Positions 12,197-27,779 of a stretch of DNA of 64,000 nucleotides are shown here, in pieces. Position numbers and translations under genes: made by a program. Source of the DNA: Citreicella sp. C3M06 (lineage in GTDB: Bacteria > Pseudomonadota > Alphaproteobacteria > Rhodobacterales > Rhodobacteraceae); contig NZ_JAHKQA010000042.1 of NCBI RefSeq assembly GCF_018860705.1, positions 1 to 64,000 on the forward strand, given 5' to 3'. Position 1 is the stretch's first letter; each line of letters begins with the position of its first letter. Under the pieces are notes generated by a model. It ran no database searches. It was not told the origin of the DNA and worked only from the letters and a program-made list of their open reading frames with translations.

Positions 12197-13071
12197 GTCT
12201 TTGCCCTCGCAAGCCGGGTTTGTGCCAACAGCAGCACCAGCACCGCCGCCATCACCAGCATCGCCAGCGCCGAGCCGAAGGGCCAGTTGCGCGCCGACAG
12301 GAATTGCTGCTCGATCAGGTTGCCGATCATCAGCACTTTGGCGCCGCCGAGCACCGAGGGCACGATGAAATTGCCAAGCGCCGGGATGAAGGTGATCACT
12401 GATCCGCCGACGATCCCCGGCATCGTGGCCGGCAGCACCACCTTGCGAAAGGTCTGCCAGCGCGTCGCGCCCAGATCGAACGACGCCTCGATCTGCGCCA
12501 TGTCGAGCTTTTCGATCGCCCCGTAAAGCGGCAGGAACATGAAGGGGATGAACACGTAGGTCATGCCAAGGATCACCGCGAAATCGGTGTACAGGAATTC
12601 CACCGGCGTCGAGGTCAGCCCGGCCCCCATCAGCGCCTGATTGAGAAACCCGGTGGGCCGCAGGATCAGCACCCAAGCGAACAGCCGCACGATCAGGCTG
12701 ACAAAGAACGGCAGGGTCACAAGAAAGATGGCAAAGGCGCGCAGTCCGGGGCGCATCCGGCTGATCCAGAACGCCGCCGGATAGCAGATCAGCAGGCTGC
12801 TCAGCACCGTCAGCCCGGCCAGCCGCAGCGAGCGCAGGAAAATGGCGATATAGACCGGGTCAAACGTCTCGTAGCGGGTGTTGGCCCAGCCAAGGATGCG
12901 CCCGAAGTTGAGATGCGAGAACACCCAGTCGACGCCGCCATACAGCCCCGGTGTCAGAAAGGCATAGACCAGCATGATCAGCAGCGGGCCGAAGAAAAAG
13001 ACCAGCAGGAACAGTGTCGGCGCGCCCAGCAGCCCAAGCAGATGACCCCGTTTGCGACGCTCAAGGCTCAT
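12193..13071 (-). CDS. ABC transporter permease, PotB type
   Basis: This 292-residue permease partners the PotC-type protein. It shows the N-terminal helix after a basic start (SLERRKRGH), six further hydrophobic segments and the EAA loop [21 protein letters not shown]. Overlaps of four bases with both neighbours indicate translational coupling in the order binding protein, ATPase, PotB, PotC, peptidase. Confidence 0.9.
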
Positions 13072-14129
13072 GGCAGCACCTCGTCGATCAGGTGCAGCCC
13101 TTGCGCATCGGCATATAGCGTCATCGCAGCGCCGATATCGGGCAGCGCCCCGTCGGCGCGCAACAGCGCGCGCAGCGTGCCATGCCCGGCGGTGTCGAGC
13201 ACCACCTGATGATCCGTGCCAGTGTAAAACGTCTCGCGCAGCGTGCCGTCAAAGCGCAGGGCCGGGCCGTTGGGGGCACGCAGGCAGAGCGCTTCGGGGC
13301 GCAGCAACAGCGTGGCAGGCCCGCCCCGGCGCGCCGCCGCAAAGCCTTGCCCGTCACGCAGGCGCGCAGCGGTGCCCGAGACCTCTGCGGGCAGCAGGTT
13401 GCTTTCGCCCAGGAAATCGGCGGTGAACAGGTTGGCCGGCGTGCGGTACAGCGCGCCCGGCGTGCCGATCTGCTGGATGCGCCCATGCGCCAGCACCGCG
13501 ATGCGGTCGGACATGGTCAGGGCTTCTTCCTGATCGTGGGTGACGAAAATGAAACCGATGCCCAGCTCGCGTTGCAGCGCCTTGAGTTCCTGCTGCATCT
13601 TCTGGCGCAGGTTCTTGTCGAGCGCCGACAGCGGCTCGTCGAGCAGCAGCAGTCGCGGCTTTCCCGCCAGCGCCCGTGCCAGCGCCACCCGCTGCTGCTG
13701 GCCCCCCGAAAGCTGCGCGATCGAGCGTTGCTGCATGCCGGACATACCGACAAGATCCAGCATCTCGCCGACGCGGGTGTCGATCTCGCGCTTGTCGCGC
13801 CCCGCAATTTCAAGCGCATAGCCGACGTTGCGCCCCACGCTCATATGCCCGAACAGGGCGTAGCGCTGGAACACCGTGTTCACCGGGCGGCGATGCGCGG
13901 GCATCTGCGTGACGGCGGTGCCATCAATCAGCACATCGCCATCGTCCAGCGTCTCAAAGCCGCTGATGGTGCGCAGCAAGGTGGTCTTGCCGCAGCCCGA
14001 CGGGCCCAGCAGCGTGACGAATTCGGCGCTGGCAAGCTTTAGCGACACACCGTCGAGCGCGGTCATGCTGCCGCCCTCGGGCGTGGCAAAGACCTTGCGG
14101 GCCCCGACGATTTCAAGAGGAGAAGGCAT
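13068..14129 (-). CDS. ABC transporter ATP-binding protein, PotA type
   Basis: This 353-residue ATPase powers the polyamine-type importer. It has Walker [10 protein letters not shown], the signature [15 protein letters not shown], Walker [13 protein letters not shown] and the H-loop [11 protein letters not shown]-terminal TOBE-like regulatory domain follows ([10 protein letters not shown] region). I start it at ATG 14129 (MPSPLEIVG), preceded by AGGA at about ten bases; the frame stays open 26 codons upstream, into the end of the binding-protein gene, without family similarity. Confidence 0.9.
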
Positions 14130-14179
14130 AGTCGTTCGTTCCTGCGATCCGGCGGGACGCGCCCGCCGGAGAGTTTCGG

Positions 14180-15208
14180 TCAGCGGGACGTTTTGATGCG
14201 GGTCCATTCCGCGTTGTACAGTTGCAGATCGCGGCCAAGGTCTTCGAAGATCTGCAGCGACTGGATGACCTCCTGCGACGGATAGATCGTCTCGTTGGCG
14301 GCGATCTCGGCGGGGATCAGCTCTTGCGCGGGCAGGTTGGGGGTGCCGTTCATCTGCTGCGCCACGTTCAGCGCGGCGATCTCGGGGCGCAGGTAGAATT
14401 CAAGAAACGCCTGTGCGGCCTGCTTGTTCGGCGCCGATTCCAGCACGCAGATGTCTTCCTGATACATCGTCGCGCCTTCCTTGGGGATGATGTAGCCGAT
14501 GGTGTCGGGGTTCTCAGAGACGTAGAGGTTCGCGCCCACGTACCAATGCGCGGCGGCCACATCGCCCGAGATCACCTGCGGCACGGAATCATAGGTAAAG
14601 GCGGTCACCCCGGCGCTGTGCTCGATCACATAATCCGCCGCCGCCTTGACCTGCGCAGGATCGGTGGCGTTGACCGGCGCGCCGGTCATGATCAGGCCGA
14701 TGCCGATGGTTTCGCGCAGATCGTCCAGCAGGGTGATCTTTTTACCCGCCTCGCCAAGGGCAAAGAAATCCTCCCAGCCGGTGATCTCGCCCGCCAGCGC
14801 CTTGTTGTAGACGATGCCGACATTGCCCCATGCATAGGGCAGGCAATATTCGGCATCGGGATCGGTTTTCGCGCGCACGAATTGCGGGTCGATATTGGCA
14901 AAGCCGGGGGCCTTGCCGATGTCGGTCTTGGCCAGCAGGCCAAGCTGGAACAGGATGTCATGCATGTGCACCGACGGGAAAACGATGTCGTAACCCGTGG
15001 CCCCGGCTTGGATCTTGGCAAGCATTTCCTCGTTTGAACCATAGCTGTCGAGGGTGACCTCGATCCCGGTTTCTTCGGTAAAGGCGTCAAGCACGGCCGG
15101 GTTGATGTAATCGCCCCAGTTGTACAGCGACAGCCGCTCTTGAGCAGAGGCGGCAAGCGGCGCCAGCAGCAGGATTGCGCTTAGGGCAAGGGGCGATTTG
15201 TGCGTCAT
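14180..15208 (-). CDS. Periplasmic polyamine-type substrate-binding protein, PotD-like
   Basis: This 342-residue secreted protein has a signal peptide (cleavage near AASAQE, residue about 22). The mature protein starts with [18 protein letters not shown], the hallmark of spermidine/putrescine-binding proteins. It continues with [13 protein letters not shown] and [12 protein letters not shown]. It is the first gene of the operon and probably the most expressed. The actual ligand cannot be fixed from sequence: the family includes spermidine, putrescine and related amines, and the linked aminopeptidase hints at an amide or peptide. Confidence 0.88.
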
Positions 15209-15268
15209 GGGGGGCGTCCTGTCAGATGATGTTCCGGTTTTTCCTTGAGTCGGGAAGATGGGGTGGTA

Positions 15269-15302
15269 CTGTCATTTTGGTCAAATGTTAGTTTTCTGTC
15301 AT
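15269..15302. promoter_or_regulatory. Operator-like repeats between the pot-type operon and rpiR
   Basis: The divergent gap contains CATTT-TGGTC-AAATG (15273-15287), a five-base inverted repeat, and two direct copies of CTGTCAT at 15269 and 15296, spaced 27 bases. They lie 13-46 bases before the regulator ATG and 61-94 bases before the binding-protein ATG, where a divergent RpiR regulator would be expected to bind. Binding is inferred. Confidence 0.4.
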
Positions 15303-15314
15303 ATAGGATTGCGC

Positions 15315-16181
15315 ATGTCTCACGGGTTTTCCTCCTTCGCCCAAGCGTCTTTCGATGAATTTATAGGCAAGATGGAAGCCGGGCTGCCGGATCTGCCCCG
15401 GCAGGAAGCCAAGGTGGCGCAGTATTTCCTGCTGAACCTCAACGCGATCTCGTTCGAGACCGGCAAGACCATCGCGCAAAAGGCGGGGGTGGCGGAAATC
15501 ACCGTCGGGCGGATGCTGCGCCGCTTCGGCTGCGCCGGGATGAAAGAGTTCAAGGAGCTGCTGCGCCACCGCTATTCGGTGATCGGCGACAGCGTGAGCG
15601 ACGACACCGCAGAGCTCAGCGGCGACTGGCAGCAGCAGAGGGCCGCCGAGCTGCGCGCCGTCGGTACGGTGTATTCGCGGATCGGCTCTCCGGCCTTTGC
15701 AGCCGCCGAACGCTATCTGCGCGAGGCGGACGAAGTACATGTCACCGGGTTTCAGACCGTGCGCGGCCTTGCCGAAGACACCGCGCGACGGATGGCGCTG
15801 GCCCGCCCGCGCGTGCGCTTTATGTCCGGCCACGACAGCATGTTGTCCGAATGGCTCGATCCGCCCAAACCCGGCGCAAGCTGCCTGCTGATCATCGACG
15901 TGGTGCCCTATGCCGCCGAATGCGAAACGCTGGCACGGCTGGCCCGCGAGCAGGGCCGCACGGTCGTGGTGGTGACCGACGAATACTGCCACTGGGCGCA
16001 GGAGGTGACGGATGCGGTGATCAACGCGCCTTCGAAAACCGGCCTGTTTCTGGAATCGGTTCTGGGCCTGACCGCCGCGACCAGCCTGCTGATCCATGCG
16101 GTGGCAACCGGCCCCGGCAGCGACCCCGACCAGCGCCTGCGCGACTGGAAGCGTCTGGCGCAGCGCATCGGTATCTTCTGA
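15315..16181 (+). CDS. RpiR-family transcriptional regulator
   Basis: This 288-residue regulator has an N-terminal helix-turn-helix of the RpiR type (residues about 20-95, with TIAQKAGVAEITVGRMLRRF) and a C-terminal SIS sugar-isomerase-like sensor domain (about 120-265). SIS domains normally bind phosphosugars, although RpiR proteins linked to amine transporters exist. I start it at ATG 15315, behind AGGAT. It is divergent from the transporter-peptidase operon and probably controls it. Confidence 0.88.
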   Translation: MSHGFSSFAQASFDEFIGKMEAGLPDLPRQEAKVAQYFLLNLNAISFETGKTIAQKAGVAEITVGRMLRRFGCAGMKEFKELLRHRYSVIGDSVSDDTAELSGDWQQQRAAELRAVGTVYSRIGSPAFAAAERYLREADEVHVTGFQTVRGLAEDTARRMALARPRVRFMSGHDSMLSEWLDPPKPGASCLLIIDVVPYAAECETLARLAREQGRTVVVVTDEYCHWAQEVTDAVINAPSKTGLFLESVLGLTAATSLLIHAVATGPGSDPDQRLRDWKRLAQRIGIF

Positions 16182-16297: not shown

Positions 16298-17236
16298 TCA
16301 GCGCTCTGCGATCAGCGCGATAAGCTTGCGGTGATCGGCGTCAAAATTGCGGATGCCCTCGGCCAGCTTTTCCGTCGCCATGGCATCGGCGTTGAGCGCC
16401 CAGCGGAAGGCGGGCTCGTCATAGCTGGCCTTCGCCACACCGGTGGCCTTTTCGGGCGACAACATGCGCGGCAGCTCGGATGTATCCGCCGCCATCTCGT
16501 CGAGCAGCTTGGGCGAGATCGTCAGATTGTCACAGCCCGCAAGCGCCTTGATCTGGTCGGTGTTGCGGAAGGACGCGCCCATCACCACGGTGTCGATGCC
16601 GTTGGACTTGTAATAATCGTAGATGCCGCGCACCGATTTGACGCCCGGGTCTTCATCGGGGGTGTAGCTGTCGACGCCCTCGGCCTTCTTGTACCAGTCG
16701 GTGATCCGCCCCACGAAGGGCGAGATCAGGAAGGCGCCCGCATCGGCGCAAGCCACCGCCTGCGCCATGCAGAACAGCAGCGTCAGGTTGCAGTCGATGC
16801 CCTCGTCCTGAAGCACTTCCGCCGCGCGGATGCCCTCCCAAGTGGCCGCGAGCTTGATCAAGATGCGGTCCTTGCCGATGCCGCGCGCGGCATAATCGGC
16901 AACGATCTCGCGGGCGCGGGCGATCGAGGCGTCCTTGTCAAAGCTCAGGCAGGCGTCGACCTCGGTCGACACCCGGCCCGGCACCAGCCGCGTCAGCTCG
17001 GCGCCCACGGCGACGGTCAGCGTCGCGACCAGCGCTTCGGGCGACAGCCCGGCGGCGCGGCCCTTTTCGATCTCGGCAGCGATCAGCGCCTCGGACGCCG
17101 GGTCCTTCAGCGCCGCCAGCACGAGGCTGGGGTTGGTGGTGCAATCCACCGGCGCCAGCCGCTTGACGGATGCGACCTCTCCGGTGTCGGCCACGACCTT
17201 GGTCATGCCGCGCAATTGTTCCAATACGGTGGTCAT
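16298..17236 (-). CDS. tal: Transaldolase
   Basis: This 312-residue TalB-type enzyme moves a dihydroxyacetone unit between sugar phosphates (sedoheptulose 7-phosphate and glyceraldehyde 3-phosphate to erythrose 4-phosphate and fructose 6-phosphate). Motifs include DCTTNPSLVLAA, GRVSTEVDACLSFD, the Schiff-base lysine in ILIKLAATWEG and CNLTLLFCMAQAVACADAGA. It is the last gene of the transporter-dehydrogenase operon, behind a GGAAAGGACA site. With the split transketolase on the other strand it completes the non-oxidative pentose phosphate reactions for the substrate of this cluster. Confidence 0.95.
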   Translation of the reverse strand: MTTVLEQLRGMTKVVADTGEVASVKRLAPVDCTTNPSLVLAALKDPASEALIAAEIEKGRAAGLSPEALVATLTVAVGAELTRLVPGRVSTEVDACLSFDKDASIARAREIVADYAARGIGKDRILIKLAATWEGIRAAEVLQDEGIDCNLTLLFCMAQAVACADAGAFLISPFVGRITDWYKKAEGVDSYTPDEDPGVKSVRGIYDYYKSNGIDTVVMGASFRNTDQIKALAGCDNLTISPKLLDEMAADTSELPRMLSPEKATGVAKASYDEPAFRWALNADAMATEKLAEGIRNFDADHRKLIALIAER

Positions 17237-17264
17237 CGGATGTCCTTTCCCTTTGCTGCCAGCG

Positions 17265-18056
17265 TTACCAGCAGCAGAAACCGCCGTCTACCAGCAGGTC
17301 CACCCCGGTAACATAGGAGGCTGCATCCGACAGCAGGAATACCGCCGGGCCGACCATCTCATCGACCGAGGCCATGCGCTGCATCGGCGTCTGGCTTTCG
17401 AATTCCTTGGTCTGGTGCACCATCTCGGGGCGGGTGTTCATCGGCGTGGCGGTATAGCCCGGCGAGATCGAATTGACCCGTATGCCATGGCCGACCCATT
17501 CCATCGCGATGGATTTCGACATATGGATCACCCCGGCCTTGGACGCATTATAATGCACCTGATTGAGGCCGCGATTGACGATCACCCCCGACATCGACGC
17601 GATATTGACGATTGCTCCGCCCTTGCCATGGGCGATCATCGCCCGGCCCTGCGCGCGGCAGGTCAGCCAGATGCCCTTCATGTTGATGTCCATCAGGGTC
17701 TGGTACTGATCCTCTTCCATCTCTTCGATCTTGTTGGCATTGGCGATGCCCGCCGCGTTCAGACACAGCGTCAACGGGCCCAGATCGGCCTCGGTTCGTG
17801 CCACAGCCTCGGCCATGGCATCGCCCGAGGTCACATCCGCCGCGATTTGAACCGATTTCGCGCCCGCCCGCGCGATGAAATCGGCGGTCTGCGCAAGCCC
17901 GTCATCGCTGCGCCGGTCGATCAGCGCGACATTGGCGCCGCATTGCGCCAGCCCCATGGCGATGCGCTGGCCAATGCCGCTGCCAGCGCCGGTGACAAAG
18001 GCGGTCCGGCCCGAAAGGTCGAACATCTTTGGGGTGTTGAGGGTGATCTCGGCCAT
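17265..18056 (-). CDS. SDR-family polyol/sugar dehydrogenase (first copy)
   Basis: This 263-residue short-chain dehydrogenase has the NAD(P) motif TGAGSGIG, the NAAG motif in CLNAAGIAN, the catalytic Ser in ASMSG and YNASK. An acidic residue after strand 2 (ALIDRRS) favours NAD. The ending YVTGVDLLVDGGFCCW resembles ketose reductases and polyol 2-dehydrogenases such as galactitol and D-arabinitol dehydrogenases. I start it at ATG 18056, eight to nine bases after AAGGA, rather than at GTG 18065. The probable job is oxidation of an imported sugar alcohol; the exact substrate is not visible. Confidence 0.85.
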   Translation of the reverse strand: MAEITLNTPKMFDLSGRTAFVTGAGSGIGQRIAMGLAQCGANVALIDRRSDDGLAQTADFIARAGAKSVQIAADVTSGDAMAEAVARTEADLGPLTLCLNAAGIANANKIEEMEEDQYQTLMDINMKGIWLTCRAQGRAMIAHGKGGAIVNIASMSGVIVNRGLNQVHYNASKAGVIHMSKSIAMEWVGHGIRVNSISPGYTATPMNTRPEMVHQTKEFESQTPMQRMASVDEMVGPAVFLLSDAASYVTGVDLLVDGGFCCW

Positions 18057-18086
18057 GTCTGGCACTCCTTCCGTGCTGCCCTGAGC

Positions 18087-18854
18087 TCAGGACATGATCA
18101 GGCCGCCATCGACGTTGATGGTCTGGCCCGTGATGTAATCGGCGTCGTTGCTGGCAAGAAAGGCGATCATCGCCGCCACGTCCGCGCCCGACCCGGCGCG
18201 TTTCATCGGGATATTCTGCACCCAGCTGTCCATCAGCTCGCCGGGGCCGTAATCGCCCAGCATCTTGCCCCAGACGCGGTCGTTGTAATCCCACATATCG
18301 GTCTTGATGATGCCCGGGCAGATGGCGTTGACGGTGATGTTGTCCAGCGCCACCTCCTTGGCAAGGCTCTGGGTCATCCCCATGACGCCGAATTTCGACG
18401 CGGCATAATGCGGGGTATAGATGAACCCCGCGCGCGCCTGCCCGGAGGCGATGTTGATCAGCTTGCCGCCGCCGCGTTGGCGCATCCGCCGGATCGCTTC
18501 CTGGCAGCACAGGAAGGCGCCCTTGGCGTTGACGTCCATGGTGGCGTCCCAGTCTCGCTCGCTCAGATCCTCGATCTTGGCGATGGTGATGATCCCGGCG
18601 TTCTGGACCGAGATATCAACCCCGCCGAACGCCTCCTCGGCGGCGTCATAAAGCCCCACCACGGCGGCCTTGTCCGCCACATCGCAGATCACGCCGATGG
18701 CGCGGGGCAGCGAGGCCGCCGCCGCCATCACCTGCTCCTCGACCGAGGCGAGCACCACATTCGCCCCCTCGTCCGAGAACCGCTGCGCAATGGCAAAGCC
18801 GATGCCCTTGTTGCCGCCGGTCACAACGACGGTCTTGCCTTGAAAACGGGTCAC
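18087..18854 (-). CDS. SDR-family dehydrogenase (second copy)
   Basis: This 255-residue short-chain dehydrogenase has TGGNKGIG, NAG in QNAGI, catalytic Ser in NIASG and YAASK, and ends TGQTINVDGGLIMS. It is only distantly similar to its neighbour, so the pair is not a recent duplication; the two may act on different carbons or stereoisomers. It starts with GTG at 18854 behind a GGGAGGG site. It lies in the middle of the same minus-strand operon. Confidence 0.85.
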   Translation of the reverse strand: MTRFQGKTVVVTGGNKGIGFAIAQRFSDEGANVVLASVEEQVMAAAASLPRAIGVICDVADKAAVVGLYDAAEEAFGGVDISVQNAGIITIAKIEDLSERDWDATMDVNAKGAFLCCQEAIRRMRQRGGGKLINIASGQARAGFIYTPHYAASKFGVMGMTQSLAKEVALDNITVNAICPGIIKTDMWDYNDRVWGKMLGDYGPGELMDSWVQNIPMKRAGSGADVAAMIAFLASNDADYITGQTINVDGGLIMS

Positions 18855-18876
18855 GATGCCCTCCCTTTGGCACGGA

Positions 18877-20358
18877 TCAGGCGGTTGCCAGTTCCATCAC
18901 CGATACGTTGTTGGCTTGCGCATGATCGAGAATGCCCGCCTGCCGCCCCGCCGCCATCACCATGATGCGGTTGGACACCCCCAGCACTTCCTCGAGATCA
19001 GAGCTGACGACGATCACCGCCACGCCCGATTGCGCAAGGCCGACGATTATGTCGTAGATCGACGAGCGCGCACCGACGTCGATACCCCGCGTCGGCTCAT
19101 CCAGCACCACGACTTTGGGATCGCGCGCCAGCCACTTGGCGATGACCACCTTCTGCTGGTTGCCGCCCGACAGCTCGTTGGCCTTTTGCGGGCCTTTGCC
19201 CTTGACGCCGAACTTGGCGATATTGGAATCTGCGAACGCGCGCACCTTGCCCGAGGTGATGAAGCCGCCGGTCGAAACCTTGCCCAGATTGGCGTAGCCG
19301 ATGTTTTCCGCGATGCTGTGCTCCAGCACCAGCCCCTGAAGCTTGCGGTCCTCGGGGACCAGAACGATGCCGTTGGTAATAGCATCGCGCGGGGATTTCG
19401 GTGTGATGTCGCGCCCGTGCAGCAGCACCTTGCCCGATGCGATGGGATCGGCCCCAGCGATGGCGCGCACCAGCTCGGTGCGGCCCGCGCCGACCAGCCC
19501 GGCAATGCCGAGGATCTCGCCCTTGCGAACGGTGAAATTGACGCCCTCGAAATCGCCGCGGGCCGAGGCAAGGCCCTGCACCTCGAGCACCGGTTCATCG
19601 CAAGGCGTGGGCAGCGCCGGGAACATCCGGTCCAGCTGACGGCCCACCATGGCCGCGACAATGCTGCGGATCGGCACATCGGCGCTGTCGAAATCCTGCA
19701 CCTTGGCGCCGTCGCGCATCACCACGATGCGGTCGGCAACCTGACGGATCTCTTCAAGCCGGTGCGAAATATAGATGATGCCAACGCCTTCGGATTTCAG
19801 CCGCGCGATCTGTTCGAACAGCCGCTTGGCCTCTTCGCCGCCCAAGGCGGCGGTCGGCTCGTCGAGGATCAGCAGCTTTGCGTTCAGCGTCAGCGCCTTG
19901 GCGATCTCGACAAGCTGCTGCTTGGCGGTCGACAGCCCATCGACCTTGCGGGTGGGCGACACATCAAGGCCCAGCCGTTCCAGCCCATGCTTCGCCTGCT
20001 GCGCCATGGCGCGCCGGTCGATCATCCCGGCGCGGCGCGGGTAGCGCCCGACAAAGACGTTTTCGGCGATACTCAGATGCGGCAGCAGCATCAGTTCCTG
20101 ATGGATCATGCCGACGCCCGCGTCGATCGCCTCGCCCGGATTGGCCGGGGCGTAGGGCTGGCCCTGCCATGTCATCTCGCCCGACGAGGGCGCGACGGTG
20201 CCGCTGATGATCTTGGACAGCGTGGATTTGCCCGCGCCGTTCTCGCCCAGAAGCGCGACCACCTCGCCCGGACGGACATCGATATCGATGCCGTGCAAGA
20301 CCTGAATCGGCCCGTAGGACTTGCGGATATTGCGCAGCGACAGGATCGGAGCGGTCAT
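18877..20358 (-). CDS. Sugar ABC transporter ATPase, RbsA/XylG type
   Basis: This 493-residue protein has two fused ATPase domains, as usual for the CUT2 sugar importers. The first has GENGAGKST and DEPTAALGG. The second has the degenerate P-loop GLVGAGRTE, with a full signature LSGGNQQK and DEPTRGID. I start it at ATG 20358 (MTAPILSLRN) because AAAGG lies eight bases upstream; an ATG six bases earlier is too close to that site. It works with the permease and binding protein upstream in the operon. Confidence 0.92.
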   Translation of the reverse strand: MTAPILSLRNIRKSYGPIQVLHGIDIDVRPGEVVALLGENGAGKSTLSKIISGTVAPSSGEMTWQGQPYAPANPGEAIDAGVGMIHQELMLLPHLSIAENVFVGRYPRRAGMIDRRAMAQQAKHGLERLGLDVSPTRKVDGLSTAKQQLVEIAKALTLNAKLLILDEPTAALGGEEAKRLFEQIARLKSEGVGIIYISHRLEEIRQVADRIVVMRDGAKVQDFDSADVPIRSIVAAMVGRQLDRMFPALPTPCDEPVLEVQGLASARGDFEGVNFTVRKGEILGIAGLVGAGRTELVRAIAGADPIASGKVLLHGRDITPKSPRDAITNGIVLVPEDRKLQGLVLEHSIAENIGYANLGKVSTGGFITSGKVRAFADSNIAKFGVKGKGPQKANELSGGNQQKVVIAKWLARDPKVVVLDEPTRGIDVGARSSIYDIIVGLAQSGVAVIVVSSDLEEVLGVSNRIMVMAAGRQAGILDHAQANNVSVMELATA

Positions 20359-20434
20359 GAGCATTGCCTTTCGCAGGTGTCGATAAGGGTGGCCGGCGCC
20401 CGGCAAGGGGCTCCGGCCGTGGACGGTGCCGTGG

Positions 20435-21361
20435 TTACGGATGCTCAGCGACGTAGTCGGCCGCGTTCTCGGGCGTGGTCAGGAAGCCCGGCAGCAGCTG
20501 CTCGGCGGGCAGTTCTTCGCCAGCGGCCAGCTTGATGGCGCTGTCCACGGCAAGGCGCCCGATGCCGCGCACCTGCTGGGTCGCGGTGGCGTCATAGCCC
20601 CCCTCGGCCAGAACCGGCAGCGCGGTGGTGTCGCCGTCAAAGCCGCCGATATAGACGCGGTGATCGATGTTCGACACTTTCACGCCCTGCATCGCGCCCA
20701 TCGCCAGACCGTCGGCCTGACCAAAGATGATGCTGACCTTCGGGTTCGCCTGAAGCAGGTTCTGCGAGATATCAAGCCCTTCGGCCTGCGACCACTGGTT
20801 CGACCATTGCTGCGCCACCAGCTCGACGCCGGGGTTTTCCTCGATGGCCTTCATGCAGCCCTTGGTGCGCTCGACCTCGGGGGTAGTGCCCTTCTGGCCG
20901 TGGATCATGATCATCTCGCCGGTGCCGCCCGCCAAGCCAATGATGTGCTTGCAGACCTCATAAGCCGACGCGGCGTTGTCGGTGGCGATGAAGGTATCGC
21001 CCGGCTCGCCTTCGGCGTTGCGATCAACGTTGACGACGGGGATGCCTTGCGCCCGTGCCAGACGCGCCGGAACCGTCGCGGCGGCGGCGCCAGCGGGCAG
21101 ATAGATCAGCGCGTCGATGTTCTGGGTCAGCAGATCCTGCACCTGGCTGACCTGTGTCGCGCCATCGTTCTTGGCGTCGACGGTGATGACCTCGATGCCC
21201 TTTTCCTTGGCGTAGTCTTCGACACCGATCTTGATCTGGTTGAAATAGTCGGCCTGCAGGTTGGTCACGGCAAGGCCAAGGCGCTTGACCTCGGCGGCCT
21301 CGGCGCTGAATGCGAACGCGGCCATGGCGGATGCTGCAAGCAGCGATGCCTTGAGTTTCAT
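20435..21361 (-). CDS. Periplasmic sugar-binding protein, RbsB type
   Basis: This 308-residue protein has a signal peptide (cleavage near AEAAEV, about residue 22) and the type I periplasmic-binding fold of the ribose/xylose group (LGLAVTNLQADYFNQIK, DALIYLPAGAAAATVPA, IPVVNVDRN, GGFDGD). It delivers the substrate to the RbsC-type permease. A strong GGAGGAG site precedes the ATG. The ligand is probably a sugar or sugar alcohol. Confidence 0.92.
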   Translation of the reverse strand: MKLKASLLAASAMAAFAFSAEAAEVKRLGLAVTNLQADYFNQIKIGVEDYAKEKGIEVITVDAKNDGATQVSQVQDLLTQNIDALIYLPAGAAAATVPARLARAQGIPVVNVDRNAEGEPGDTFIATDNAASAYEVCKHIIGLAGGTGEMIMIHGQKGTTPEVERTKGCMKAIEENPGVELVAQQWSNQWSQAEGLDISQNLLQANPKVSIIFGQADGLAMGAMQGVKVSNIDHRVYIGGFDGDTTALPVLAEGGYDATATQQVRGIGRLAVDSAIKLAAGEELPAEQLLPGFLTTPENAADYVAEHP

Positions 21362-21458
21362 GGATGTCTCCTCCGGTCGTTTCGAAACGCTCCTCGCGTC
21401 TCGTCAGGGTGCCCCGCAGGGCAGTGACCGGCGGGCGCGGGGCACCCGCCGGGAAAAT

Positions 21459-22433
21459 TCAGCGCTTCTTGAAGGCTTCGGCAGCGACGGCGAGCGCGAT
21501 GACCACGCCGATCACCACCGACTGGGTAAAGGGCGACACGCCCAGCAGGTTCAGCCCGTTGCGCAGCACGCCGATGATCAGCACACCGATGATGGTGCCG
21601 ACGATGCCGCCCTGCCCGCCGCTCAGGCTGGTGCCGCCGATCACCACCGCCGCGATGGTGTCGAGCTCATAGGTAAATCCGGCGGTGGGCTGCACCGAGT
21701 CCAGCCGCATCGCCAGAACCACACCGCCAAGCCCGGCCAGCAGGCTGGACACCACATAGACGCCGACGGTCAGCAGATTGGTGCGAATGCCCGCAAGCCG
21801 CGCCACCTCGGGATTGCCGCCAATGGCATACAGGCTGCGCCCGGCAGAGCTGTAGCGCAAGAACACCCATCCCAGTGCGAACACCACCAGCATCACGGCA
21901 ACGGTCGCGGTCAGAAAGCCGCCGTAACGAATGAAGGCCAGCATCGAAAACCACGCCGGAAAGCCGACGATCTGCTGGCCATCGGTGATCATGTTGGCAA
22001 GGCCGCGCGCGATCGACATCATCGCCAGCGTGGAAATAAAGGCGGGCACGTTGAACAGGGTGATCAACAGCCCCGACACCGCGCCGCTGGCCGCCGCGCA
22101 GGCCAGCGCCACCGCGATGCCGATGCCCAGCGGGTAGCCCGCGACATTGGCGACATATCCCATCACCATCATCGCCAGCGCCAGCACCGAGCCGACCGCA
22201 AGGTCGATGCCCCCAATCAGGATGACCAGCGTCATGCCCACCGCCATGATCCCCAGCACGGTGATCTGGTCGAGCACATTGAGCAGGTTGCGCAGGGTGA
22301 AAAACGAGTCGGTCGCAAAGGACAGGAAGATGCACAGCAGCACCAGCCCGATCAGGGGGCCAGTTGCCCCGCTCAGCGAGAACATGTCAGAAAGCCGCGG
22401 CCGCTCCGACGACGTGGATTGGGTCATGGTCAT
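21459..22433 (-). CDS. Sugar ABC transporter permease, RbsC type
   Basis: This 324-residue permease of the CUT2 family has about eight to ten helices and typical segments such as GITVLGIMAVGMTLVILIGGIDLAVGSVLAL (short form GGIDLAVGS) and IGGTSLSGGQGG. I start it at ATG 22433 because GGAGGAGGAT precedes it; an in-frame start five codons upstream lacks a site. It is the first gene of the minus-strand operon. Confidence 0.92.
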   Translation of the reverse strand: MTMTQSTSSERPRLSDMFSLSGATGPLIGLVLLCIFLSFATDSFFTLRNLLNVLDQITVLGIMAVGMTLVILIGGIDLAVGSVLALAMMVMGYVANVAGYPLGIGIAVALACAAASGAVSGLLITLFNVPAFISTLAMMSIARGLANMITDGQQIVGFPAWFSMLAFIRYGGFLTATVAVMLVVFALGWVFLRYSSAGRSLYAIGGNPEVARLAGIRTNLLTVGVYVVSSLLAGLGGVVLAMRLDSVQPTAGFTYELDTIAAVVIGGTSLSGGQGGIVGTIIGVLIIGVLRNGLNLLGVSPFTQSVVIGVVIALAVAAEAFKKR

Positions 22434-22477
22434 CCGATCCTCCTCCAAGGGTGCCCGATGGGCCTTCGGTGTAATGC

Positions 22478-22488
22478 ATATTTATTCA
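22478..22488 (-). promoter_or_regulatory. Operator-like site 1 of the polyol regulon
   Basis: TGAATAAATAT on the minus strand, flanked on both sides by ATGCAT (22474-22479 and 22488-22493). It lies between the probable promoter and the start of the RbsC-type permease gene. The same sequence occurs at 22629-22639 and a near copy at 25901-25911. Confidence 0.55.
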
Positions 22489-22508
22489 TGCATGATGGAA
22501 AATGCCTA

Positions 22509-22531
22509 ATCCGACATAACCCCGCTGTCAA
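22509..22531 (-). promoter_or_regulatory. Probable -35 region for the minus-strand transporter operon
   Basis: TTGACA on the minus strand (22531-22526) followed after 17 bases by TAGGCA, a weak -10. Operator-like site 1 lies just downstream, in a position where bound protein would block transcription. The -10 assignment is uncertain. Confidence 0.4.
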
Positions 22532-22590
22532 GCCATAGATGCACCTCAAATTCGCCGCAGCGCAGCGCCAGCCTTCGCTATCTCGGCAGC

Positions 22591-22620
22591 TTGACAGCGT
22601 CGGTTTTTGTATGTTTATAT
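22591..22620 (+). promoter_or_regulatory. Probable promoter of the transketolase-kinase operon
   Basis: TTGACA (22591-22596), an 18-base spacer and TTATAT (22615-22620) form a housekeeping-type promoter about 40 bases upstream of the transketolase start. Operator-like site 2 follows at 22629-22639. Confidence 0.5.
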
Positions 22621-22628
22621 CTGCTGGA

Positions 22629-22639
22629 ATATTTATTCA
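22629..22639 (-). promoter_or_regulatory. Operator-like site 2 of the polyol regulon
   Basis: An exact copy of the 11-base site at 22478-22488 in the same orientation, next to a second TTCAT (TTCATTCAT). It lies between the promoter and the ribosome-binding site of the transketolase gene. It is also flanked by an outer TGTATG...CATACA pair (22609-22614 and 22640-22645). Confidence 0.55.
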
Positions 22640-22660
22640 TTCATACAAGGGGATACCGCG

Positions 22661-23482
22661 ATGGACACCCAAGACCTTCGCCGCATGGCGAACCAGATCC
22701 GGCAGCGCGACGTTCGGGCCGTCTTTGAGGCTGGGGCCGGACACATCGGCGGCGAGATGTCGGTCACCGACCTGCTGACGGCGCTGTATTTCGACATCAT
22801 GAACGTCGATCCGGCCAACCCGTTGGACCCGAACCGCGACCGCCTCGTGCTCAGCAAGGGCCACACCGCGCTGGCGCTCTACATCACGCTGTCGAAAAAG
22901 GGCTTCATCCCCGAAGCGGAAATCGAGACCTTTCTGGCGCATAACTCCCGCCTCAATGGCCACCCCAACCGGGTCAAGGTTCCGGGGGTCGAAACCAACA
23001 CCGGCCCGCTGGGCCACGGCCTGCCGGTTGCGGTTGGCATGGCCACGGCGGCCAAGCTGAACGGCGCGTCTTGGCGCAGCTTTGTCATCACCGGCGACGG
23101 CGAGATGCAGGAAGGCTCCAACTGGGAGGCGATCATGGCCGCCGCGCAGTTCAAGCTGGATAACCTGACGCTGATCATCGACCACAACCGCCTGCAGCAG
23201 GGCGCAAGGCTGGCCGACACCAACAACCTCGCGCCCATCGCGCCAAAGGTCGCCGCCTTCGGCTGGGCGGTCGAGGAAATCGACGGTCACGACATGGAGC
23301 AGATCACCCGCGCCCTGTCGGCAGACACGATCACCCAAGGCAAGCCCAAATGCATCGTCGCCCACACCAACAAGGGTCAGGGCATCAGCTTCATGTCCGA
23401 CAACGTCGCATGGCACCACAAGGTGCCGACCGAAGACCAATACCGGCAGGCCATCGCCGAACTCGAGGAGGCCCTTCAATGA
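22661..23482 (+). CDS. Transketolase, N-terminal (TPP-binding) subunit
   Basis: This 273-residue protein equals the first domain of transketolase. It has GHIGGEMS, SKGH, NTGPLGHGL and the thiamine diphosphate motif GDGE...N (TGDGEMQEGSNWEA then IDHN). It must pair with the product of the next gene, which overlaps it by four bases. Start ATG 22661 lies behind AAGGGG. Split transketolases are known in archaea, some bacteria and in the apiose pathway (AptA/AptB). Here the split enzyme sits with an FGGY kinase, as in that pathway, but no apiose isomerase is visible. Confidence 0.92.
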   Translation: MDTQDLRRMANQIRQRDVRAVFEAGAGHIGGEMSVTDLLTALYFDIMNVDPANPLDPNRDRLVLSKGHTALALYITLSKKGFIPEAEIETFLAHNSRLNGHPNRVKVPGVETNTGPLGHGLPVAVGMATAAKLNGASWRSFVITGDGEMQEGSNWEAIMAAAQFKLDNLTLIIDHNRLQQGARLADTNNLAPIAPKVAAFGWAVEEIDGHDMEQITRALSADTITQGKPKCIVAHTNKGQGISFMSDNVAWHHKVPTEDQYRQAIAELEEALQ

Positions 23483-24438
23483 ACATGCCCTTCAAGGACG
23501 CCAAACTGCACGATTGCCGCAATGCCTTTGTCGCCGCTCTGGAAGAGCTGGCCGAGGCGAACCGCGACATCGTCACCGTGTGCAACGATTCGGTCGGAAG
23601 CTCGAAGCTGGGCGGCTTCAAGGAAAAGTTTCCCGAACGGCTGATCAACGTCGGCATCGCCGAGCAGAACATGGTCGGCGTCGCGGCCGGGCTGGCCAAT
23701 GGCGGCAAGATCCCCTTTGTCTGCTGCGCCGCGCCGTTCCTGACCGGCCGCGCGCTGGAACAGATCAAGGCCGATGTCGCCTACAGCCAGACCAATGTGA
23801 AGCTGGTCGGGATTTCCTCGGGCATGGCCTATGGCGATCTAGGCCCGACCCATCATTCGATCGAGGATTTCGCATGGATCCGCGCCTTGCCGAACATTGC
23901 GGTGATCGCCCCCGCCGATCGCATCGAAACCGATGCGGTGATCCGCTGGGCCGCGCAATATGACGGCGGCTGCTTCCTGCGCCTGAGCCGCGTCGGCGTG
24001 CCCGACCTGCTGCCCGAGGGCCATGTGTTCGAACTGGGCAAAGCCAACCTGCTGCGCGACGGCGCGGACCTGACGATCATCGCCAATGGCACGCTGGTGC
24101 ACCGCGCCATGAGGGCCGCCGCCCTGCTGGCCGACAAGGGCATCGAGGCGCGCGTTCTGAACATGGCCAGCGTGCGCCCCATCGACGAAGACGCCATCGT
24201 GGCCGCCGCGACCGACACCGGCGCGATTGTCACCGTCGAGGAACACACCACCTTTGGCGGTCTGGGTTCTGCCGTGGCCGAAGTGGTGGTCGACAAGGCC
24301 CCGGTGCCGATGGCACGGCTCGGCGTGCCGGGGGTGTTTGCGCATACCGGCTCGGCAGAGCAGCTGCTCGATGATTTCGGCATGGCCCCCTCGGCCATCG
24401 CCAACAGCGCCGAAGCGCTGCTGAAACGGAAAGGCTAA
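23479..24438 (+). CDS. Transketolase, C-terminal subunit
   Basis: This 319-residue protein equals the pyrimidine-binding and C-terminal domains of transketolase. The catalytic Glu is in NVGIAEQNM, the substrate loop in DLGPTHHSIEDFAW, and the C-terminal domain starts near LLRDGADLTIIANG. It combines with the upstream subunit into an active enzyme that moves two-carbon ketol units. The ATGA overlap with the upstream gene suggests balanced translation of the two halves. Confidence 0.92.
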   Translation: MNMPFKDAKLHDCRNAFVAALEELAEANRDIVTVCNDSVGSSKLGGFKEKFPERLINVGIAEQNMVGVAAGLANGGKIPFVCCAAPFLTGRALEQIKADVAYSQTNVKLVGISSGMAYGDLGPTHHSIEDFAWIRALPNIAVIAPADRIETDAVIRWAAQYDGGCFLRLSRVGVPDLLPEGHVFELGKANLLRDGADLTIIANGTLVHRAMRAAALLADKGIEARVLNMASVRPIDEDAIVAAATDTGAIVTVEEHTTFGGLGSAVAEVVVDKAPVPMARLGVPGVFAHTGSAEQLLDDFGMAPSAIANSAEALLKRKG

Positions 24439-24442
24439 GACC

Positions 24443-25900
24443 ATGGAACGCGCCATTCTGGCAATCGACGAAGGCACCACGAATTCCAAGGCCGTGCTGG
24501 TGTCGCAAACCGGAGAGATCCTCGCCAGTGGCGCGTCCCCCGTCCCCACGCAATATCCCCAGCCCGGCTGGGTGCAACAAGACGCAAATGCCATCTGGGC
24601 GGCGACGCAGAGCGCCATCAAGGCCTGCATTGCCGCCCGACCCGATGTGCAGGTCTCGGCCATCGGCATTTCCAACCAGCGCGAATCGGTTTTGATCTGG
24701 GATCGCGCCACCGGTGCGCCTCTGGGGCCGGTGGTGACCTGGCAATGTCACCGCACCTCCGATGCCTGCGAGGCGCTGAAGGCCGCCGGCCACGAGCCAG
24801 AGGTCATCGCCAGAACCGGTCTGCCGATCGACCCGATGTTCCCACCGACCAAGGCGGCATGGCTGCTGAAACATCACGCCAGCGCGCCCGACATCTGCAT
24901 CGGCACGGTGGACAGCTGGCTGATCTGGAACCTCTCGGGCGGCGCGGTGCACGCAACCGACCGGTCCAACGCCGCGCGCACCCAGCTGTTCGACCTCGCG
25001 CAAGGTGCATGGGACGAGGATCTTTGCGCGCTGTTCGGCGTCGCGAAATCCATGCTGCCCAACGTCCACGACAGCGCGCATGTCTTTGGCACCACCAAGG
25101 GCGCGGGCGTGCTGCCCGACGGCATCCCCATCGCCTCGGCCATCGGCGATTCCCACGCCGCGCTCTTTGGGCATGGCGCCTTTCACCCCGGAGACGGCAA
25201 GATCACCTTCGGCACCGGCTCTTCGGTGATGACCACGGTGCCCGATTTCATCGTGCCGCCCAAAGGCATCACCACCACCATCGCCTGGTCGCTGAACGGC
25301 CAGAGCACCTATGCCTTCGAAGGCAATATCCTTGTCTCCGCCTCGATCCTGCCATGGACACAGGCGCTGCTTGGCCTGCCCTCGGTCGATGCGCTGATGG
25401 ATCTGGCGCAAACGGTCGACGATAGCATGGGCGTCACGCTGGTGCCCGCGCATGTCGGCCTTGGCGCGCCGCATTGGAACGCCGAGGCGCGCGGGCTGAT
25501 CAGCGGCCTGACCTTCGGCGCAGGCCCGGCGCATGTGGCACGGGCGGCGTTCGAAAGCATCCCTTTTCAGGTGCGCGACGTGTTTGCCATCATGGCGCAG
25601 GCGGCGGGCGGCATCGGGCGGGTCTCGGTCGACGGAGGTCCGTCGCGCAACCGCTTCCTGATGGGGCTGGTCGCCGACATGCTCAACCACCCGGTCACCC
25701 CGGCCCGCAATACCGAAGCCTCGGCGCTTGGCGCGGCCCATCTCGCCGGGCTGGCCACCGGCATGTGGCCCGATCTGAAGGCGCTGTCGCAACTGGCTAG
25801 CCGCGACGCCGACATCGCCCCGCAGATGGCCCCAACGCAGCGCGCGCAACGCCAGAGCGCATGGCACAAGGCAATTGCCCGCAGCATCCTTGACGTGTAG
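24443..25900 (+). CDS. FGGY-family carbohydrate kinase (glycerol kinase-like)
   Basis: This 485-residue kinase has the FGGY fold. The N-terminal phosphate loop is DEGTTNSKAVLV, the catalytic Asp is in IGDSHAALFGHG, followed by TFGTGSSVM, and the C-terminal adenosine loop is VDGGPSRNRFLMG. It is closest in pattern to glycerol kinase, but context points to a ketose or polyol: it follows the split transketolase by four bases and precedes a SorC regulator. Candidates are D-xylulose, an erythrulose, apulose or sedoheptulose; sequence alone does not choose. It ends within operator-like site 3. Confidence 0.88.
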   Translation: MERAILAIDEGTTNSKAVLVSQTGEILASGASPVPTQYPQPGWVQQDANAIWAATQSAIKACIAARPDVQVSAIGISNQRESVLIWDRATGAPLGPVVTWQCHRTSDACEALKAAGHEPEVIARTGLPIDPMFPPTKAAWLLKHHASAPDICIGTVDSWLIWNLSGGAVHATDRSNAARTQLFDLAQGAWDEDLCALFGVAKSMLPNVHDSAHVFGTTKGAGVLPDGIPIASAIGDSHAALFGHGAFHPGDGKITFGTGSSVMTTVPDFIVPPKGITTTIAWSLNGQSTYAFEGNILVSASILPWTQALLGLPSVDALMDLAQTVDDSMGVTLVPAHVGLGAPHWNAEARGLISGLTFGAGPAHVARAAFESIPFQVRDVFAIMAQAAGGIGRVSVDGGPSRNRFLMGLVADMLNHPVTPARNTEASALGAAHLAGLATGMWPDLKALSQLASRDADIAPQMAPTQRAQRQSAWHKAIARSILDV

Positions 25901-25915
25901 TGAATAAAAATTCAC
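25900..25915. promoter_or_regulatory. Operator-like site 3, a perfect palindrome
   Basis: GTGAAT-AAAA-ATTCAC is an exact six-base inverted repeat that starts on the last base of the kinase stop codon, 28 bases before the SorC-type regulator ATG. It contains TGAATAAAAAT, which differs by one base from sites 1 and 2. It probably allows the regulator to control its own gene. Confidence 0.55.
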
Positions 25916-25943
25916 AGGCAACCTTGGCCGGGAGAATCCACAA

Positions 25944-26909
25944 ATGTCGCGCCTGAACGAGCTGCGCATGATCGCGCGGGTGGCCCAGATGTATTACGTT
26001 GAAAAGCAGCGGCAGGCCGACATCGCGAAACACCTGCGCATGTCGCAGGCCACCGTGTCGCGAATGCTCAAGAAGGCACAGGAAGAACAAATCGTGCGCA
26101 CCACGGTCGTCGCCCCGTCGGGGACCTATGCCGAACTCGAGGCCGGCCTGCGTGAACACTTCGGCCTGTCCGAGGCCATCGTCGTCGAATGCTCCGAAGA
26201 CCGCGACGGCGCGATCATGGCCCGCATCGGCGAGGCCGCGGCGCATTTCCTTGAAGCGACGCTGCAACCGGACGAGATCATCGGCGTGTCAAGCTGGTCG
26301 GAAACCATCCTGCGCATGGTCGACAACATTCACCCGATGAAATCGGGCAAGGCGAAATACGTGGTGCAAACCCTCGGCGGCATGGGAGACCCGGCGGTCC
26401 AGACCCATGCCAACCAGCTCACCACGCGGCTGGCACGGCTGACCGGCGCCGAGGCGCATCTGCTCAGCGCCCCCGGCGTGGCGCAATCGCGCGAGGCCAA
26501 GCTGGTTCTGCTGGGCGACCCCTATGTGCGGGAAACCATGGATCTTTTCAGTAAGATCACGCTCGCCATCGTTGGCATCGGCGCGATCGAGCCCTCCTCG
26601 ATGCTGGCCCGCAGCGGCAATGTCTTCTCCTCGCGCGAATTGTCCGATGTGACCGACGCAGGTGGGGTCGGCGACATCTCCTTGCGCTTCTTCGACAGCT
26701 CCGGTGACCCGGTGCGCACACCGCTCGACGAGCGCGTGATCGGCATGACTCTGGAAGAGCTGTCAAACGTTGAGCGGGTGATCGGCCTCGCGGGCGGCCA
26801 ATCCAAGACCGAAGCCATCCGCGGCGCGCTGCAGGCCGGTGTGCTCGACCTGCTCGTAACCGACAAATTCACCTCCGCGAGACTGCTCCGGAGCGGCCCC
26901 GAGTCATAA
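25944..26909 (+). CDS. SorC/DeoR-type sugar-binding transcriptional regulator
   Basis: This 321-residue regulator has an N-terminal helix-turn-helix (residues about 15-55, QADIAKHLRMSQATVSRMLKKA) and the SorC sugar-phosphate-binding domain (about 60-315; GVSSWSETILRMVD, QTLGGMG, GIGAIEPSSML, LAGGQSKTEAIRGAL). EryD of erythritol catabolism is of the same family. It lies at the end of the plus-strand operon behind GGGAGA. It is the likely reader of the three TGAATAAAWAT sites, with a phosphorylated intermediate as effector. Confidence 0.9.
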   Translation: MSRLNELRMIARVAQMYYVEKQRQADIAKHLRMSQATVSRMLKKAQEEQIVRTTVVAPSGTYAELEAGLREHFGLSEAIVVECSEDRDGAIMARIGEAAAHFLEATLQPDEIIGVSSWSETILRMVDNIHPMKSGKAKYVVQTLGGMGDPAVQTHANQLTTRLARLTGAEAHLLSAPGVAQSREAKLVLLGDPYVRETMDLFSKITLAIVGIGAIEPSSMLARSGNVFSSRELSDVTDAGGVGDISLRFFDSSGDPVRTPLDERVIGMTLEELSNVERVIGLAGGQSKTEAIRGALQAGVLDLLVTDKFTSARLLRSGPES

Positions 26910-27107: not shown

Positions 27108-27581
27108 TCAGGCGACGGCCTTTGCAGCGGCGGGCCGGTCCAGTTGCCCATGAAGCGCGGCAATCGACAGGGCTGCGCGGGCGGCCTCACGGCCCTTCGC
27201 CACGAAATGCGTGCCAAAGAACCCTTCGTGCTCGGCGGTCGGCTGGAAGTGGTGCGGCGTCAGCGACACCGACAGCACCGGAACGCCAGTGTCGAGCCCG
27301 GCCTTCATCAACCCGTCGACCACCGCCTGCGCCACAAAGTCGTGGCGGTAGATGCCGCCATCCACGACCAGCGCCGCGCAGGCGATGGCATCGTAGTCAC
27401 CGCTTTGCGCCAGCCTGCGCGCCACAAGCGGCATCTCGAAGGCGCCCGGCACCTCGAAGACATCGACGGGAGCAGTCACGCCGGCGTCATTCAATTCGGC
27501 AAGGAATCCTTCGTGCGCGCGGTCGACGATATCGGCGTGCCAACGCGCCTTGATGAAGGCAAACTTGGGGGATTTTGTCAT
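27108..27581 (-). CDS. ribH: 6,7-dimethyl-8-ribityllumazine synthase (RibH, type II)
   Basis: This 157-residue enzyme makes the lumazine precursor of riboflavin from a ribityl pyrimidine and dihydroxybutanone phosphate. It shows FIKARWHADIVDRAHEGF, the EVPGAFEMPLVARRL loop and the SVSLTPHHFQP / EHEGFFGTHFVAKG segments, which are typical of the RibH2 branch (as in Brucella) rather than of the common RibH. I start it at ATG 27581 because the upstream frame lies in the riboswitch. No other riboflavin gene is near, so it is a stand-alone gene controlled by FMN. Confidence 0.92.
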   Translation of the reverse strand: MTKSPKFAFIKARWHADIVDRAHEGFLAELNDAGVTAPVDVFEVPGAFEMPLVARRLAQSGDYDAIACAALVVDGGIYRHDFVAQAVVDGLMKAGLDTGVPVLSVSLTPHHFQPTAEHEGFFGTHFVAKGREAARAALSIAALHGQLDRPAAAKAVA

Positions 27582-27651
27582 AACTCTGGTCCTTTCCGCA
27601 TGACAGAATCCCAGAGCGTCGAAGCACGGCGCCAAATGGCCCCGCACCCCC

Positions 27652-27774
27652 TTCTCTACCATCCGGACTTTCACCGTCGGCCCCGGAGTTCCACCGGATC
27701 TGCTGACCCATCGTCTATGATGGCGCTCGCGGGCTGTCACCGCCGGTGGGGAATTGCACCCCGCCCTGAGAATT
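27652..27774 (-). promoter_or_regulatory. FMN riboswitch (RFN element)
   Basis: On the minus strand the conserved RFN blocks occur in order: TTCTCAGGGCGGGG, AATTCCCCACCGGCGGT, AGCCCGCGAGCG, GTCAGCAGATCCGGTGGAA, CCGACGGTGAAAGTCCGGAT and a closing GAGAA. The element ends about 70 bases before the ribH ATG. FMN binding to this RNA lowers expression of riboflavin synthesis or transport genes, so ribH should be repressed when FMN is plentiful. Confidence 0.95.
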
Positions 27775-27779
27775 CCCCA

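Follow-up and report, generated by a model that had tools for sequence, protein, structure and literature searches.

What does a bacterium import and degrade with two divergent operons that join a ribose-type importer to a pair of dehydrogenases, a sugar kinase and a split transketolase? The question is raised by positions 16298-26909 of a 64,000-nucleotide stretch of the Citreicella sp. C3M06 genome (contig NZ_JAHKQA010000042.1, positions 1 to 64,000), which we call the window. The minus strand encodes a transaldolase, two short-chain dehydrogenases/reductases (SDR-B and SDR-A) and the ATPase, ribose-type binding protein and permease of a CUT2-type ATP-binding cassette (ABC) importer, while the plus strand encodes the N and C halves of a transketolase, which overlap by 4 bases, a glycerol-kinase-like FGGY kinase and a SorC/DeoR-type regulator. 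All ten genes are open frames with Pfam/NCBIfam support, much as an earlier note on this DNA had named them, the regulator being additional to the families in its title; slightly more than 200 bases separate the likely starts of the permease and the transketolase N half. We consider it rather probable that the cluster encodes a non-oxidative catabolic pathway for D-apiose, a branched sugar of pectin (rhamnogalacturonan II) and plant glycosides, in which the two SDRs would replace apiose isomerase.

In the proposed pathway the CUT2 importer would bring in apiose, one SDR would reduce it to apiitol, and the other would oxidize apiitol at C2 to apulose, a net isomerization analogous to that of fungal xylose reductase and xylitol dehydrogenase. 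The FGGY kinase would then form apulose 4-phosphate, and the split transketolase would pass a two-carbon unit to glyceraldehyde 3-phosphate, yielding xylulose 5-phosphate and dihydroxyacetone phosphate (DHAP); the kinase and transketolase steps are those of the known apiose pathway, as is the ApsI step that the SDR pair would stand in for. The transaldolase would help the pentose phosphate onward, in line with the flow into the non-oxidative pentose phosphate steps that had already been proposed correctly for this locus, and SorC would act on sites in the promoter region between the two divergent operons to control both. We propose each reaction, its order and direction, the imported ligand and the binding of SorC to its motif from sequence comparison. 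What carries the proposal is gene content, family relations, the exchange of isomerases and SDRs around the same kinase and transketolase, and a common operator-like motif.

By sequence, the kinase and split transketolase of the window group among those of apiose-type clusters, including clusters with candidate apiose isomerase genes. In quick tree searches with SH-aLRT as the sole support measure, the window kinase and that of a Pectobacterium locus (L063) lie inside one starred set of 50 among 62 rows (55 from loci, 7 from the FGGY outgroup), and a branch with support of 100 among 61 transketolase C halves sets the same two apart from 6 other split transketolases. The C-half tree places the window in one deep clade and the E. 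coli/Pectobacterium rows in another, with long branches between the two clades, each of which holds loci with an SDR pair, a FucI-like protein or a XylA-like protein. The SDR-pair label requires 6 changes on the kinase tree, at least 5 of them forced by starred branches, and 5 on the C-half tree, at least 4 of them forced. On a 60-row kinase tree that leaves out two very long outgroup rows, an approximately unbiased (AU) test, chosen after the first tree had been seen and with labels taken from gene content, rejected, at p = 3.7e-46, the hypothesis that the pair-bearing kinases in 20 rows form one clade apart from the isomerase-bearing kinases in 24. Repeated gain, loss or transfer of the SDR pair would each fit the trees alike.

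These placements bear on the linear pentitol or C7 polyol that the earlier note had favored as substrate. A transaldolase does adjoin the transketolase, and the relatives of SDR-B with solved structures include galactitol dehydrogenase (2WDZ), both of which would suit such a pathway. The kinase, though, groups with apiose-cluster kinases and scores 465.8 bits with the GlpK model against 207.9 with XylB and 52.6 with the best ribulokinase model (all below cut-off), and a transaldolase at about 55% identity occurs in only 7 of 105 related stretches (L050, L074, L075, L077, L078, L081 and L085). With kinase placement and gene distribution both contrary to it, we regard a linear polyol as highly improbable. 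Two TAL_FSA genes were found by a search of the organism's own genome, the second being 67% identical to a fructose-6-phosphate aldolase.

The absence of an apiose isomerase, as the earlier note had it, holds for the cluster: it contains neither a XylA-like nor a FucI-like isomerase, and searches of the organism's own genome for both types, run without a positive control, returned none. In SDR-B the residues N, S, Y and K, which we take to be the SDR catalytic set, are invariant in 9 of 9 aligned proteins together with Asp50, and in SDR-A the same four are invariant in 9 of 9. A Klebsiella SDR-A with its own solved structure was also sought and rejected, there being no PDB match at E ≤ 1e-60.

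A further argument for an apiose route with an SDR pair comes from the enzymes that accompany the kinase and transketolase elsewhere, which we call front ends. In 149 genomes of the family, the closest kinase relative outside the organism's own genome has 65% identity (genome G014) and the rest of the matches listed have 36-49%. Among seven family stretches examined, five (L037, L038, L039, L040 and L042) pair a split transketolase with a DeoR-type regulator, and four of these five likewise encode a DUF2291-like protein, along with a binding protein that has 76-87% identity to its counterpart in L033, a Rhizobium rhizoryzae locus; L036 combines kinase and transketolase but has no FucI-like protein, and L041 has the kinase alone. 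All five encode a FucI-like protein (L-fucose isomerase C-terminal domain confirmed in L037, the sole one checked), in place of which L033 has a xylose-isomerase-like TIM barrel. The wider set (L043-L122) consists of the best 80 of at least 579 relatives that a profile scan, with a Klebsiella sequence as query, found in named genomes, and the sample leans to that query.

Loci were picked by their transketolase, not by an SDR, and labelled by BLAST; a transketolase C half is matched at 60% coverage in 105, of which 6 (L125-L130) are outgroup split transketolases, with the window and L136-L139 uncounted. The front end is SDR-A with SDR-B in 30, a tandem of FucI-like protein and SDR pair in 1, SDR-A with another SDR in 8, FucI-like in 31 and XylA-like in 11, with none called in 24. 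Thus none of the 31 SDR-pair loci has a XylA-like isomerase and one, the tandem Vibrio locus, has a FucI-like one; two overlapping loci (L061 and L073) lie on a single Vibrio salinus contig, whose SDR pair is counted twice. The order on this contig is transketolase pair, SorC, window-type importer, SDR-A, one kinase, SDR-B, apiose-type importer, second transketolase pair and FucI-like isomerase, and only the one FGGY kinase of this type was recognized in the stretch. Two importers and two front ends around one kinase suggest a common ketose, and the swapping of front ends around the same kinase and transketolase in the sample at large argues for the same. Some other branched compound (hamamelitol or 2-C-methyl-erythritol, for instance) processed by a related kinase and transketolase would suit the divergent binding protein (25-29% identity) and a kinase only 42% identical to that of E. 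coli, but we think it very unlikely given the kinase, transketolase and operator-like motif common to apiose-type clusters.

Two further arrangements were seen in the sample. The FucI-like protein (L037:12310-13836, with relatives in, e.g., L048-L055, L058, L112, L091 and L093) occupies clusters where the Pectobacterium locus has the XylA-like one, and from this position it may be a second, unrelated apiose isomerase. In eight loci (L095-L101 and L104, from Paraburkholderia, Burkholderia, Rouxiella, Erwinia, Pantoea, Dickeya and an Enterobacteriaceae strain) SDR-A (56-65%) is accompanied by another kind of partner SDR (32-37%), and the regulator is DeoR.

The regulator provides a separate line of evidence. 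The motif TGNATAWTTATKCA, allowing at most one mismatch, has 4 matches in the 64 kb versus 0.03 expected, and these make up three sites (one being matched on both strands), two of them between the divergent operons and the third ahead of SorC. It was written after viewing intergenic sequences from the window itself, from L136 and from seven Rhizobiaceae loci, which are not independent of it. Scored from 450 bases upstream of the transketolase N half to 120 bases into its frame, where about 0 are expected per class, the motif is present in 29 of 29 loci with SorC and the SDR pair, including 22 of 22 not used to write it (from E. coli, Klebsiella and Pseudomonas among others), in 17 of 20 loci with SorC and a FucI-like protein, in 0 of 17 DeoR loci and in a single one (L080) of the 14 loci where neither regulator was called. 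Sharing of a site is compatible with sharing of a regulator and inducer, and we suggest the motif as a putative operator for SorC.

The cluster is not a chance neighborhood. At E ≤ 1e-130 the window kinase matches 78 plasmid records, by genus name 77 from Rhizobiaceae and one labelled Roseateles. All 10 annotated plasmid regions examined among these have an SDR, the ATPase, the binding protein and the permease divergent from the two transketolase halves, the FGGY kinase and SorC, with a second SDR after SorC in 7 and beyond tpiA in 3, where it is annotated as glucose 1-dehydrogenase. Three Rhizobiaceae plasmid loci match the window at about 80% (SDR-B), 66-68% (SDR-A) and 61-64% (binding protein) identity. 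Across a sample of Alphaproteobacteria, SDR-B relatives at E ≤ 1e-75 were found in 5 genomes out of 385 (one of them that of the window) by a class search that scored at most 6 candidates per genome and that weaker relatives could escape; in all four others they adjoin the same kinase, transketolase pair and SDR-A, and one of the four clusters has an MFS-like transporter (by eye) instead of the ABC importer. Transaldolase and transketolase are housekeeping families, which would suit ordinary pentose phosphate genes that had become neighbors by accident, but this explanation is barely credible to us when the core set is found again in Rhizobiaceae, in Pseudomonas and in other families and a further transketolase-like gene (C49, 35%, in a 686-residue frame) is present in the genome.

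Genes next to some of the clusters are compatible with DHAP and xylulose 5-phosphate as products: besides the transaldolases mentioned above, tpiA is found in 4 of the 10 plasmid regions (L024, L030, L031 and L032) and in the Pseudomonas locus L081, and L024 also has fsa and a full-length transketolase. The nearby tpiA raised an erythritol- or threitol-like route, in which a kinase would be followed by a TpiA-like isomerase; it is not favored, as the kinase and transketolase belong with apiose-type clusters.

Several observations weigh against the proposed pathway, among them those on the importer. The window binding protein is distant from apiose-cluster ones (25% to that of E. coli SE15, 29% to that of Rhizobium etli). 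In favor of the apiose reading, on the other side, the binding protein of L033, an isomerase cluster, matches PDB entry 5IBQ at 493.6 bits and 78% identity; 5IBQ is a protein of plasmid p42f of R. etli CFN42, its gene shares a stretch with oiaX, and its structure presumably holds apiose as ligand. The best match to the L033 protein in the organism's own genome at E ≤ 1e-20 is only 29% identical and lies on another contig. In a 14-protein alignment, two columns that we take to be pocket positions, following the numbering and roles of ribose-binding protein, are Ala in 8 of 8 window-type proteins versus Asn in 6 of 6 apiose- and E. coli-type ones, while a Trp common to the window and apiose types is Gly in the E. 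coli type. Outside the importer, 24 of the 105 loci lack a called front end, and these include the 6 outgroups, short contigs and five loci (L056, L057, L069, L086 and L092) that have an apiose-type binding protein with no isomerase recognized. The motif occurs in only 2 of 9 loci with SorC and a XylA-like protein and in 8 of the 12 that have SorC but no assigned front end. L036 (G014:C2), a close kinase and transketolase relative (65-73%), has no SDR pair in 16 kb beginning at its contig start, and its genome yields only a partial SDR-B match (123 residues, 63%; G014:C7:65699-66067) and another at 37%. Finally, no apiosidase match was found in the window genome by a search that was positive in 2 of 14 control genomes, so that the organism would depend on free sugar. 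The regulator frame of L036 is shortened, and its cluster is possibly decaying.

Alternatively, the same core would serve free apiitol or another reduced apiose derivative, with the SDRs acting only as oxidizing enzymes, e.g., one per stereoisomer. The window-type binding protein was called in 24 loci, 23 of them with an SDR pair and the last (L080) at its contig end, while the apiose type was called mostly with isomerases (FucI-like in 26 loci, XylA-like in 8, no front end in 5, plus the tandem Vibrio locus). Because of this association and the exchange of Ala for Asn in the pocket, the importer may take apiitol or another apiose derivative; the side-by-side presence of both importer types with one recognized kinase in V. 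salinus points the same way. Co-inheritance alone could produce the same pattern, however, the oxidation of apiitol to apulose needs one SDR rather than two, and to our knowledge apiitol is not well known as a free nutrient. We consider free apiitol possible but unlikely, and retain apiose as the predicted substrate.

Also in favor of apiose, apiosidase-domain proteins stand directly after the kinase in L119, a Chloroflexota bin (two proteins), and beside SorC in L067, from Pantoea (one); the test covered proteins picked by eye from these two loci only. On a Croceibacterium plasmid (L028:8636-14393) a split transketolase and FGGY kinase adjoin pectin-degrading genes and a GH95 gene.

Just beyond the regulator lies a second lumazine synthase gene (27108-27581, minus strand), preceded by a flavin mononucleotide (FMN) riboswitch (27647-27777, minus strand, 106 bits). 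Comparable genes are found at other clusters: ribB in 16 of the locus stretches, ribH in L042, L095 and L096 and at the cluster in genome G486, with FMN riboswitches in 5 of 7 ribB/ribH loci searched (not in L082 or L114); the ribB of L050 and L082, a long frame, could be the housekeeping copy. Two ribH copies are carried by 4 of 11 alphaproteobacterial genomes with clusters, and in 3 of these 4 one copy is at the cluster. Apulose 4-phosphate resembles the RibB product, and it is our guess that the ribB/ribH copies serve as antimetabolite relief. Apiose reductase/apiitol dehydrogenase (EC 1.1.1.114) is known from old biochemistry and was long without a sequence. It is decidedly doubtful, in our estimate, that window-type clusters form a dedicated pathway for free apiitol as an unrecognized bacterial nutrient, with the SDR pair providing the EC 1.1.1.114 activity and a phosphorylated intermediate, closely analogous to 3,4-dihydroxy-2-butanone 4-phosphate (a precursor of riboflavin), explaining the adjoining FMN-switched ribB/ribH genes. 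The idea that RibH2 is tied to erythritol operons found no support in literature searches. Brucella ribH2 is described as an isolated open reading frame (ORF) with an RFN element (PMC2828483).

The features of the cluster are listed below. On its flank, an ABC importer operon (polyamine-like by eye; 12193-15208, minus strand) diverges from an RpiR-type regulator (15258-16181, plus strand).

Features of the divergent operons, with positions in the window
Feature	Positions	Strand	Remarks
Transaldolase (TalB type)	16298..17236	-	TIGR00874, 416 bits (cut-off 396)
SDR-B, dehydrogenase of the pair	17265..18065	-	start probably ATG at 4th codon; 61% to E. coli SE15 ECSF_RS02670
SDR-A, dehydrogenase of the pair	18087..18854	-	57% to ECSF_RS02675
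CUT2 ABC transporter ATPase	18877..20406	-	AraG/XylG/RbsA-like, all below cut-off; ORF as listed begins at TTG, true start probably about 20360
Ribose-type solute-binding protein (SBPw)	20435..21361	-	PF13407
CUT2 ABC permease	21459..22448	-	PF02653; true start probably about 22430
Operator-like site 1, TGCATATTTATTCA	22475..22488	.	precedes importer operon
Operator-like site 2, GGAATATTTATTCA (one mismatch)	22626..22639	.	precedes transketolase operon
Transketolase N half (AptA-like)	22607..23482	+	PF00456; true start probably ATG at 22661; 47% to ECSF_RS02710
Transketolase C half (AptB-like)	23479..24438	+	PF02779/PF02780 (on longer frame starting upstream); 41% to ECSF_RS02715
FGGY kinase, glycerol-kinase side of the family, among apiose-cluster kinases	24443..25900	+	
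Operator-like site 3 (one mismatch)	25901..25914	-	between kinase and regulator
SorC/DeoR-type regulator with sugar-binding domain	25944..26909	+	PF04198; 42% to ECSF_RS02705

If the apiose reading is right, the SDR pair, the xylose-isomerase-like and the fucose-isomerase-like enzymes would be three exchangeable entries to one ketose, and the SDRs would be candidate genes for the apiose reductase and apiitol dehydrogenase activities. The hypothesis put forward for E. coli in 2026 (see below) would then extend to rhizobia, pseudomonads and other Alphaproteobacteria. The cluster also offers a candidate operator for its SorC regulator and an importer of testable specificity.

Among known systems, clusters for ribitol, arabitol or xylitol have a xylulokinase- or ribulokinase-type FGGY kinase, a type to which the model scores of the window kinase do not assign it. 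In the sulfo-transketolase pathway (SqwGH) a transketolase acts on a sulfonated ketose with no kinase step, and the kinase of the window speaks against membership. The oxidative apiose cluster of R. etli CFN42 (oiaX) likewise has a CUT2 importer adjoining apiose genes, but neither a transketolase nor an FGGY kinase is annotated in 35 kb, and its binding protein is 29% identical to that of the window. The Rhizobiaceae plasmid clusters (Shinella, Sinorhizobium, Agrobacterium and Rhizobium), of which literature searches with apiose terms turned up no description, share the genes, importer type and divergent order of the window, but no transaldolase of the window's type was found there and the position of SDR-A varies.

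The Pectobacterium-type D-apiose degradation I pathway, with ApsI, ApsK and AptA/AptB, was reportedly described by Carter et al. in 2018. The L063 kinase and transketolase C half stand among the same loci as those of the window in our trees, and its XylA-like isomerase (60% identical to that of L033) is, we infer, ApsI; the window differs in having two SDRs and another importer type, and it lacks the apiose isomerase and apiose-type binding protein of the ApsI-type route.

The closest counterpart is the cluster of E. coli STc131 and STc14 strains, which, together with E. fergusonii, grow on D-apiose whereas K-12 does not (PMC13001218, 2026). According to that paper it resembles the Pectobacterium cluster without apsI and has two putative oxidoreductases hypothesized to replace it (PMC13001218). 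The main text of PMC13001218 contains no mention of Rhizob, Pseudomonas or Rhodobacter. Its screen looks for clusters that match at least 5 of 10 SE15 genes (thresholds of 40% identity and 80% coverage) and that have the kinase together with aptA and aptB inside 10 genes. By this the window counts as Escherichia-type, since global alignment gives identities of 41-61% for 6 of the 10, with DUF2291 absent. In global alignments with SE15 the window proteins have identities of 56.9% (SDR-A), 61.4% (SDR-B), 42.3% (kinase), 47.3% and 41.4% (transketolase N and C halves) and 42.2% (SorC), and for the importer 39.1% (ATPase), 38.3% (permease) and 25.2% (binding protein); no near DNA match to 22607-26909 was found in the E. 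coli collection.

The likeness to the apiose route that the earlier note had recognized is thus borne out by the trees and by the homologous SE15 core, while its view that the pathway was undescribed is not supported, in that the apiose cluster of E. coli presented in PMC13001218 has the same core set of kinase, split transketolase, two SDRs and SorC. It had also named a clustering of kinase and transketolase within known clusters of the same gene set as the outcome that would count against it, and this is largely what was found, the binding protein at only 25-29% being the part that does not conform. The ST131/ST14 cluster (SE15 ECSF_RS02670-02715) shares with the window the homologous kinase, transketolase halves, SorC and both SDRs, the lack of apsI and a divergent transketolase operon, but a DUF2291 lipoprotein is present there only, its kinase and regulator lie on the importer side, and the transaldolase is found in the window only. 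A similar isomerase-free arrangement was already reported from E. coli in 2026, and what the window adds is an alphaproteobacterial version with a distinct importer.

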